DNA from: Thermogemmatispora onikobensis
GTDB lineage: Bacteria; Chloroflexota; Ktedonobacteria; Ktedonobacterales; Ktedonobacteraceae
Length of the DNA: 64,000 bases
Assembly (NCBI RefSeq): GCF_001748285.1
Contig: NZ_BDGT01000018.1
Span: forward strand, 1-64,000
Direction: 5' to 3'
Shown: positions 46,904 to 50,314 of the stretch, piece after piece
How positions within the stretch are numbered: the first letter of the stretch is position 1
Layout of the letters: every line of letters starts with the position of its first letter
Notes under the pieces: generated by a model
What the model was told of the DNA's origin: nothing
The model's database searches: none
What the model saw: only the letters and a program-made list of their open reading frames with translations
Program-made: the position numbers and the translations under genes

Positions 46904-47531
46904 AACACTACTGCAGATTCACCAGCATAGTCATGACATGGAAAAGTACGTCTCCTGATAGCGATCGCCTGGTCTCATGCTGGAGGCGCTGGCAGGTGGG
47001 ATGCTGACCAGAAGAGCCAGGCTTCTCAACCGTAAGGTCAGGAGAGTGGCCCAGATAGAGGCGAGCAGAGAGGTGCCAGGGCCTCTTTGTTAGAATACTC
47101 CCCTGTCCCAGGCCATGCAATCCAGGTGCGTGGCTGTCGCTCTCGCCTGGTCCTTACCTTGCTCGCTTGCACGCAGGCTGGCTCAGACCCTTCCGGCGAG
47201 CCGCAGTGACTCAGCCGGACTGGCCTGACTGACGACATTGGCTATTTCCGCGAAGGACACGCTTCGCTGGATGTGGCCATCGGCCTGGGGCGGTGCTTCT
47301 CTCAAGTGAAGCGATCCATCCGTCCAGGGGCCGCAAACGCCGGTTGTATCAGTCAGGGTACTCTATATAAAACGATCCAGACGAGGGATCAACCACACTG
47401 GCGACACCTGTCCCACTCGTCGCAAGGGTCCGTTTGATCAATGACTCAGCCGCGAGCCGCGGCAGTAGCAGGCGCTGGGAAAGGAGAGGGAGGTCGCAAC
47501 GCAGCCGTGCATTCTGCATGCAGCCGGGCGG
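46904..47531. other. large intergenic region upstream of murI and the chaperonin region
   Basis: About 630 bases between divergent genes with no convincing gene. Small palindromes occur (CTGCATGCAG near 47513) but no RNA family is recognised. An open frame around 47230-47440 has no start codon or family match. Confidence 0.4.
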
Positions 47532-47597
47532 TGATTCTAACGCTTCTCTAACACTCTTCCTACGCTTCTCTAATGCTTTTCCTACGTAGCTCTAATG
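47532..47597 (+). promoter_or_regulatory. six 11-bp direct repeats, probable activator binding array
   Basis: Six consecutive 11-base units with register kept throughout, beginning at 47532, 47543, 47554, 47565, 47576 and 47587. Examples are CTTCTCTAACA and CTTTTCCTACG; bases 5-6 are TC in all six, base 9 is A in all six, base 11 is G in five. One-turn spacing is what PhoB/OmpR-type and SARP-type winged-helix proteins bind. The array ends 10 bases before an extended -10, the position at which a pho box replaces the -35. Confidence 0.7.
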
Positions 47598-47604
47598 GGG
47601 GGTA

Positions 47605-47613
47605 TGGCATACT
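47605..47613 (+). promoter_or_regulatory. extended -10 promoter downstream of the repeat array
   Basis: TGGCATACT (TGn plus CATACT). The expected -35 position is occupied by the last direct repeat and has no consensus, as in activator-dependent promoters. The first ATG is 48 bases downstream. Confidence 0.5.
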
Positions 47614-47661
47614 CGAAGCAGGCTCAGGTGTTGCTTGGACAGCAAGGAGAGGCGAGGACCC

Positions 47662-47949
47662 ATGTACGCAGCGAGCAATCGGTCACAAGGGAACGCTGGT
47701 CAGAGTGCTCAGCGGGCGCCGCAACCGCAGCCGTTGCGCTGTGCGAACTGCGACATCGAGATTCGCTGGTCTCCAACGATCGTGCAGGGCAAGGCTTATT
47801 GCTGTAGTGGGTGTGCTGCTGGGGGCCCTTGCAGCTGTGATTATTCACAGTATCGCTCAGTCAACATTGCTGGTGTGATCCACTACATGCCTGAGCATGA
47901 GGGGCAAGATTCTACTCAGCCGCATGGGATGGAAACAAGCCCGTCCTGA
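47662..47949 (+). CDS. small cysteine-rich (zinc-binding) protein
   Basis: 95 residues. After a 25-residue Gln/Ala/Pro-rich start comes a compact metal-binding core: C-x2-C (Cys27, Cys30, in RCANCDIEIRW), then CCSGC (47, 48, 51) and CSC (57, 59), ending DYSQYR. Seven cysteines in 33 residues fit a treble-clef or TRASH-like zinc site. The ATG at 47662 has GGCGAGGA upstream. It is the first gene after the repeat-array promoter and precedes groES by 330 bases on the same strand, so it may be in the chaperonin transcript. Function unknown. Confidence 0.72.
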   Translation: MYAASNRSQGNAGQSAQRAPQPQPLRCANCDIEIRWSPTIVQGKAYCCSGCAAGGPCSCDYSQYRSVNIAGVIHYMPEHEGQDSTQPHGMETSPS

Positions 47950-48283
47950 GCTGCTAGAAGGGTACTTGTGAGAGGCTCGTTGGCTCCAGTGGCCCCTGGT
48001 TCTGCTGTCTCCCCGTCCTGCAGCAGCTGCCGATTGAACGCACAGAGTGTGGAATCGGAGTCTGCATCGTCCCACGCCGATCTGAGGCCATAGGCAACGT
48101 GAGGGAAGCGGTCTGGTCTGTGACAAGGTGGCCGGCGAGGAGGCGCGAAGCTTTTCTGAGAGTGGAAGCTCGCCTGGTAGCCCCTTTTGTTCGCTTGTGT
48201 ACCTACGCGAGAGACGCGATGGGTCCTGTACAAGAGAAGTGCGCAACCCTAAAAAACTAGCGGAAGAAAGGGAGAAGACGTTC
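47950..48283 (+). other. gap between the cysteine-rich gene and groES
   Basis: About 330 bases. No CIRCE element (TTAGCACTC inverted repeat) and no clear promoter is seen here or between groES and groEL. Nothing else recognised. Confidence 0.45.
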
Positions 48284-48574
48284 GTGGCGAAGATCCGTCC
48301 TGTTGGCGACCGCGTGGTGGTGAAGCCCGCGGCCAAAGAAGAGGTCACTAAGAGTGGTATCGTCATTCCTGATACAGCTAAGGAGAAGCCCCAGGAAGGG
48401 ACCGTCGTTGCCGTAGGGAGCGGTCGGCTGCTTGATAATGGCGAGCGGGCGGCGTTGGAGGTGCGCGAGGGCGATCGGGTGCTCTTTGCCAAGTATAGTG
48501 GCACTGAGTTCAAGCTCGATGGCGAGGAATACCTGGTACTAAAAGAGAGCGATATTCTCGCCGTTCTGAGCTGA
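48284..48574 (+). CDS. groES: co-chaperonin GroES
   Basis: Heptameric lid of the GroEL cage. The 96 residues cover the full family: [44 protein letters not shown] with the mobile loop [13 protein letters not shown], then [32 protein letters not shown]. The GTG start at 48284 has AAGGGAG about 10 bases upstream; the frame open from 48128 adds 52 residues with no homology to the family. GroEL follows after 114 bases. Confidence 0.95.

Positions 48575-48688: not shown

Positions 48689-50314
<1,626 letters not shown>

Follow-up and report, generated by a model that had tools for sequence, protein, structure and literature searches.

A row of 11-bp direct repeats before groESL in Thermogemmatispora onikobensis as the putative operator of a two-component chaperone regulon in Chloroflexota

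Textbook heat-shock control comes down to a few solutions, namely sigma-32, HrcA-CIRCE, CtsR and HspR, and in many bacteria it is HrcA-CIRCE that governs groESL. In the 64,000-nucleotide stretch of Thermogemmatispora onikobensis DNA analyzed here (the window; contig NZ_BDGT01000018.1, positions 1 to 64,000), groES and groEL are preceded by a small gene and, before it, by a row of short direct repeats, which raises the question of what such a row does at a chaperone locus and which protein reads it. The original prediction, made from the letters alone, had described six in-register 11-bp repeats abutting an extended -10 element without a -35, and had guessed at OmpR/PhoB-type two-component or SARP control of the chaperonin region rather than HrcA-CIRCE. 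The features concerned are these (R1 is a sequence model introduced below):

47536 to 47546, plus strand: array unit 1, TCTAACGCTTC; also covered by the R1 match at 47536-47573
47547 to 47557, plus strand: array unit 2, TCTAACACTCT
47558 to 47568, plus strand: array unit 3, TCCTACGCTTC
47569 to 47579, plus strand: array unit 4, TCTAATGCTTT; the class-wide pattern uses the three units nearest the promoter, beginning with this one
47580 to 47590, plus strand: array unit 5, TCCTACGTAGC; TCCTAY at unit 5 is typical of the class
From 47591, plus strand: array unit 6, TCTAATGGGGG, with its core TCTAAT at 47591 to 47596
47605 to 47613, plus strand: extended -10 element TGGCATACT, with the hexamer CATACT at 47608-47613 and without a -35
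47662 to 47946, plus strand: 95-aa cysteine-rich protein, the first gene past the array, with no Pfam family
48284 to 48574, plus strand: groES (Cpn10)
48689 to 50314, plus strand: groEL (Cpn60)

Six in-register units of the form TCYWAY-N5 occupy 47536-47601 of the plus strand; the units had originally been drawn from 47532, four bases earlier, which leaves the register unchanged. The plus strand of the window has 43 TCYWAY and a single six-long run in an 11-bp register, no run exceeded two in 200 windows simulated with a first-order Markov model, and the array was also called by Tandem Repeats Finder. Eight bases separate the TCTAAT of unit 6 from TGGCATACT, and the hexamer CATACT begins 11 bases past TCTAAT. 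Between 47400 and 48800 a scan turned up no -35/-10 pair of the sigma-70 type. Both the repeats and the extended -10 without a -35 were therefore as described, and a separate groES promoter, which would have told against the original prediction, did not appear, no sigma-70-like promoter lying nearer groES in that scan. A known RNA element was rejected for the array region, there being no Rfam match in 47400-48400.

The genome itself (G000, genus Thermogemmatispora) is assembled as 5.56 Mb in 112 contigs. A three-unit pattern, with at most one mismatch allowed, matched the array of the window, arrays before a second groES and before htpG (both on contig C45) and, in reversed orientation, one before an hsp20 gene on C10 (hsp20-1), and the reversed control of this pattern gave one match. 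Before groES1, groES2 and htpG exactly 8 bases lie between the last unit and TGGCAT. The model R1, built from 31 sites and trained inside the class (Ktedonobacteria), gave seven matches in this genome at E<=1, and all seven fell at chaperones, at five loci in all: groESL1, groESL2, htpG, hsp20-1 and, on C56, hsp20-2 (Hsp90 and Hsp20 identities were assigned by Pfam). The original prediction had proposed a genome scan for the repeat at promoters, for which these seven matches speak, and had made itself refutable by a register that was not conserved in relatives; the class-wide pattern and R1 comparison bore the conservation out.

Extended to include the -10 and allowed at most two mismatches, the pattern matched 32 of the 47 class genomes, with 29 of 29 in the family of T. 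onikobensis, and its reversed control matched 1 of 47; three matches lie outside the family but within the class, one of them (L012) without a chaperone nearby. R1 (E<=1) matched 46 of the 47, the exception being a 58% complete draft (G017) in which neither the array nor an orthologue of the regulator described below was found. The array stands before groES, or before a cysteine-rich gene preceding groES, in 46 of 47 class genomes (in G040, G045 and G046 only the cysteine-rich gene is visible past the array), and the cysteine-rich gene between array and groES is conserved in the family. Among 59 R1 matches fetched from the class, which are part of all its class matches, 53 lie at groES, htpG or hsp20 (the chaperones at L108 and L113 need a shorter ORF limit), 2 at contig ends and 4, all weak, elsewhere. 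Those four (L088, L118, L119 and L128; E 0.047-0.79) are not at chaperones and were taken as chance. In class sites TGGCAT is kept at a fixed spacing from the array; at hsp20 the -10s resemble TATACT, with the spacing unchanged, and most sites have 10-11 bp between the last unit and the -10 hexamer.

Across the phylum R1 at E<=0.01 matched 68 of 400 genomes, 46 in the class and 22 outside it, against about 4 expected outside by chance. The outside-class matches number 24, and 19 of them stand before hsp20 (as in G151), htpG, groES-groEL or dnaK; the remainder comprise one before a kinase-regulator operon (G204), one at a contig end and three elsewhere. L141, L152 and L154, which are not at chaperones, were taken as chance, and the matches L092, L115 and L142 run into contig ends. 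Judged by this comparison of genomes, the array is the local copy of a chaperone control element that recurs across the phylum.

The genome of T. onikobensis carries 28 Trans_reg_C matches. A candidate for the protein that reads the element was found through a Trans_reg_C census in small array-bearing genomes combined with a tree (bootstrap not settled), and tree and census together single out one orthologue group, represented here by the following pair:

C34, 27175 to 28860: histidine kinase with PAS, HisKA and HATPase domains
C34, 28863 to 29582: response regulator with a receiver and an OmpR/PhoB winged helix, directly after the kinase gene

PF00072 and PF00486 score above cut-off in this regulator and in those of G342, G204 and G295, which meets the domain criterion for the OmpR/PhoB family. 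D61 and the acidic pair are invariant in seven regulator sequences and the partner kinase gene lies directly upstream, phosphotransfer itself being inferred. A GAF domain is added to the PAS-HisKA-HATPase kinase in G342 and, weakly, in G204, and no membrane domain was apparent in the kinase in the family scan. The nearest solved relatives of the regulator are an unnamed regulator (6lgq) and KdpE, and it met no NCBIfam equivalog cut-off among those shown. Orthologues in the family's other genera are 84-89% identical to it, those in the phylum at large about 60-70%. At E<=1e-82 an orthologue was found in 44 of 47 class genomes, one of these split (a split reading frame in G027), and in 114 of 353 genomes outside the class; the search scored at most seven candidates per genome, and misses are possible. 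None was found in the array-bearing drafts G021, G044, G245 and G287. An OmpR-type gene near hsp20 in G125 was dropped as a lead, the tree placing it in another clade.

The surroundings of the regulator were examined in 50 orthologue neighbourhoods outside the class (L266-L314 and L325), picked from the orthologue match list for family spread. An hsp20 gene lies within 4 kb of the regulator in 11 of the 50 (a weak hsp20 in L306, family f40, passed in one of two neighbourhood scans only). With L136 and L148 added, a chaperone (hsp20 or groESL) lies within 4 kb in 12 of 52 neighbourhoods versus 0 of 59 paralogue loci; these two were found through the array and so are not independent of the array evidence. 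The paralogue loci are mostly 3 kb long; an equal span of ±1.4 kb gives 4 of 52 versus 0 of 59. The kinase-regulator operon of G342 is divergent from groESL with an array in between, and in G204 an array stands before the kinase gene. On its side away from the kinase, the G204 array faces a small zinc-ribbon-like ORF (L148:2419-2703).

A matrix built from 94 chaperone-promoter sites, with L136 and L148 excluded, gave 18 hits (>=14 bits) in 14 of the 50 regulator neighbourhoods and none when reversed; on 62 paralogue loci it gave 2 forward and 2 reversed hits. The hits fall in the gaps that precede hsp20, upstream of the regulator itself (three f40 genomes), upstream of the kinase (G162) or past the regulator (G105, where the next gene is without identification). 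R1 (E<=5), which is less sensitive there, matched only L285, L274 and L269 among the 50. Outside the class the orthologue is present in 18 of 22 array-positive genomes versus 96 of 331 others (Fisher p=1.1e-6, uncorrected for phylogeny). The 96 genomes that carry the orthologue without an R1 match at E<=0.01 may reflect low sensitivity, because the training sites of R1 came from within the class. In class genomes 0 of 30 loci have the regulator beside a chaperone, and no array was found before the regulator. The guess of OmpR/PhoB-type two-component control thus gained support from the gene neighbourhoods, with no need to invoke SARP control, and the most likely candidate is this one phylum-conserved OmpR/PhoB-family response regulator with its PAS (or GAF-PAS) histidine kinase, a choice drawn from genomic context without binding, mutant or expression data.

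In E. coli a Pho box stands where the -35 would be, some 10 bp upstream of the -10. In the accessible parts of two papers it is described as a pair of 11-bp direct repeats, each made up of a conserved 7-mer and 4 further bp (PMC2648988), on which PhoB binds in tandem and contacts polymerase (PMC3348028). The array shares with this E. coli system, as there described, direct 11-bp repeats of a 7-mer plus 4 bp, but it reads TCTAACR and not CTGTCAT, has four to six units and serves chaperones, not phosphate genes; the regulator, at 217 of 296 bits, falls short of the cut-off for the PhoB equivalog, and the regulator tree has a separate clade linked to PhoU (PhoU recognized by eye). Membership of a Pho regulon was rejected, given that the matches in the T. 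onikobensis genome are at chaperones and that the regulator fails this cut-off. For KdpE, the available excerpt of one paper gives 6-bp half-sites with a 5-bp spacer, the site TTTATA/TTTACA and R193, R200 and T215 as residues that matter for DNA binding (PMC3264566). By alignment offset these residues correspond to R204 and R211 (both invariant) and T/S226 of the regulator, and half-sites of 6-7 bp at 11-bp steps are common to kdpFABC and the array; the kdpFABC site, as that excerpt has it, differs from the array in sequence. KdpDE membership was not met, the regulator standing below the KdpE equivalog cut-off (213 of 325 bits) and the kinase showing PAS-HisKA-HATPase only.

We consider it quite probable that this kinase-regulator pair runs a chaperone regulon and that the array is the operator of that regulon. 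The array, its spacing and conservation, the content of the regulon and the neighbourhood and co-occurrence of the regulator are established at the level of sequence; it is by inference that the regulator is phosphorylated, binds the array and activates rather than represses, and the signal, too, is inferred. In the proposed mechanism, the PAS-HisKA-HATPase kinase would phosphorylate the response regulator encoded directly after it, and the regulator would bind head to tail, one monomer per 11-bp unit (the 7-mer TCTAACR plus 4 bp), four units seating two dimers and six units three, all along the same face of the helix. The -35 would be replaced by the last unit, which ends 10-11 bp before the -10 hexamer, and the regulator would act as a class-II activator that recruits sigma-A RNA polymerase. 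Upon protein misfolding groESL1, groESL2, htpG and hsp20 would be raised, with hrcA-dnaK kept separately by HrcA-CIRCE. Class-II activation fits because the -35 position falls under the last unit and, in most sites, the -10 follows 10-11 bp on, and the criterion for a class-II activator-dependent sigma-A promoter (operator over the -35 position, fixed distance to the -10, no -35) is met by the letters alone; that the promoter depends on an activator is an inference from this geometry. Heat induction is likewise inferred, from gene content only (groESL, htpG, hsp20 and dnaK). Two sets of arrays appear as exceptions to the class-II layout. Many arrays of family f4 bear further units closer to the promoter, and the reversed array of hsp20-1, which is conserved in the genus (L130, L122-L126), lies before a consensus TTGACA/TATACT promoter and is unexplained by the class-II model.

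Rre1 of cyanobacteria is a NarL-type regulator. On heat, the two-component pair that it forms with Hik34 switches on major chaperone genes directly (PMC13232611 and its reference 33), and Rre1 resembles the proposed regulator in that respect; it differs in its minimal site, GTnCGG, with no tandem 11-bp array described in the part of that paper available. RprY of Porphyromonas gingivalis, of the EnvZ-OmpR family, binds the groES, dnaK and clpB promoters (PMC3646045) and is thus a family relative at chaperone promoters, for which, in the portion accessible, no array is described; MXAN_4468 of Myxococcus acts at groEL (PMC9040617). That chaperones can come under response regulators is borne out by these three, and two-component chaperone control is already known; new by comparison are the OmpR-type array, the activator geometry and the phylum-wide spread. 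No account of the element or of a two-component chaperone regulon in Chloroflexota/Chloroflexi was found in open-licence papers, searched by titles and abstract openings.

Two of these precedents make it conceivable, if unlikely, that the regulator represses at the array and is released by heat or misfolding. RprY differs from the proposed activator in appearing to repress its chaperone promoters (PMC3646045) and MXAN_4468 represses groEL together with HrcA (PMC9040617), both on partial access to the source, and polymerase could moreover be blocked by dimers lined up across the -35 region. Against repression speak the absence of a -35 and the steady 10-11 bp between the last unit and the -10 at many sites, a layout like that of an activator standing in for the -35.

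Given the number of winged-helix proteins in the genome, we also considered that the array is a chaperone operator bound by some other winged-helix or one-component protein (OmpR, SARP or unknown), the candidate merely traveling with hsp20. The 28 Trans_reg_C matches leave room for such a protein, the candidate adjoins no chaperone within the class, and in G125 a second OmpR-type gene, in another clade, lies about 2 kb from an array-hsp20 locus. However, among the regulators examined only the candidate orthologue group turns up repeatedly, in several families, next to arrays or chaperones, arrays stand before the candidate regulator gene itself in the three f40 genomes, and none of the 59 paralogue loci has a chaperone neighbour, so that we regard a different binder as rather improbable.

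HrcA is present in 44 of 47 class genomes, several of which (e.g. G009, G014, G005 and G002) have CIRCE-like inverted repeats immediately before hrcA. In T. onikobensis the copy is weak (5 mismatches), some 440 bases upstream of the hrcA match. With three mismatches the reversed CIRCE control also has many matches in some genomes, this one included, so that single weak matches say little. CIRCE (TTAGCACTC-N9-GAGTGCTAA) was not found at four or fewer mismatches in the chaperone loci scanned. The array is a direct repeat, and the criterion for an HrcA-CIRCE operator, an inverted repeat at groESL, is not met. Thus these genomes share HrcA itself with the known system but differ in that its inverted-repeat repressor site is found at hrcA, not at groESL, and a CIRCE variant was rejected for the array on these grounds. 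Because HrcA and CIRCE at hrcA persist in these genomes, the array would be a second system. The expectation of control other than HrcA-CIRCE therefore held in that the element is distinct from CIRCE, and needs qualifying in so far as HrcA and CIRCE do exist, at hrcA.

That HrcA binds a rearranged CIRCE is very doubtful: TCTAACACTC in unit 2 is like the CIRCE half TTAGCACTC, 7 of 9 letters of CTAACACTC agreeing with the half-site in our own comparison, and HrcA is widespread in the class, but the array is direct, its conserved core is TCTAAC and not the ACTC part, the same genomes carry CIRCE-like inverted repeats before hrcA, and the scanned chaperone loci hold no CIRCE within four mismatches. 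Hardly more credible is an alternative sigma factor that reads array and TGGCAT as promoter elements, for TGGCAT is indeed conserved at a fixed spacing, but the array has four to six tandem units, occurs reversed upstream of a sigma-70-like promoter, and is followed in hsp20 sites by TATACT-like -10s at the same spacing.

Returning to the kinase-regulator pair, we think it reasonably likely that Chloroflexota inherited a phylum-wide OmpR-type regulator and a soluble-looking PAS or GAF-PAS kinase that use rows of 11-bp sites to switch on groESL, htpG, hsp20 and sometimes dnaK, beside HrcA, as a positive heat-shock circuit without a dedicated sigma factor. If true, a conserved two-component activator with its own class of operator adds one solution to heat-shock control, in a phylum that is deep-branching and rich in thermophiles. 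The proposal is directly testable through its target promoters, the kinase-regulator pair and the site rule (a TCTAACR every 11 bp, with 10-11 bp between the last and the -10), and the kinase offers a handle on the sensing of cytosolic misfolding or temperature.

Several further observations were made at these loci. An array similar to the reversed one of hsp20-1 lies, also reversed, before an hsp20 in G020 (L110). At many hsp20 promoters of the class an inverted repeat, TTGATAG-N5-CTATCAA, lies a few bases before the first array unit (C56:27671-27689 in T. onikobensis; L095-L121 and L127) and is possibly a second operator. The window begins, at 1-189 (the contig start), within an OmpR-type DNA-binding domain. 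The small cysteine-rich protein has the pattern CANCDIE...CCxGCAxGGPCxCDY, conserved at L014-L040, L073 and L147, and in G007 (L078:301-963) and G006 (L077:847-1380) such a cysteine-rich stretch and GroES share one open frame, a possible fusion.
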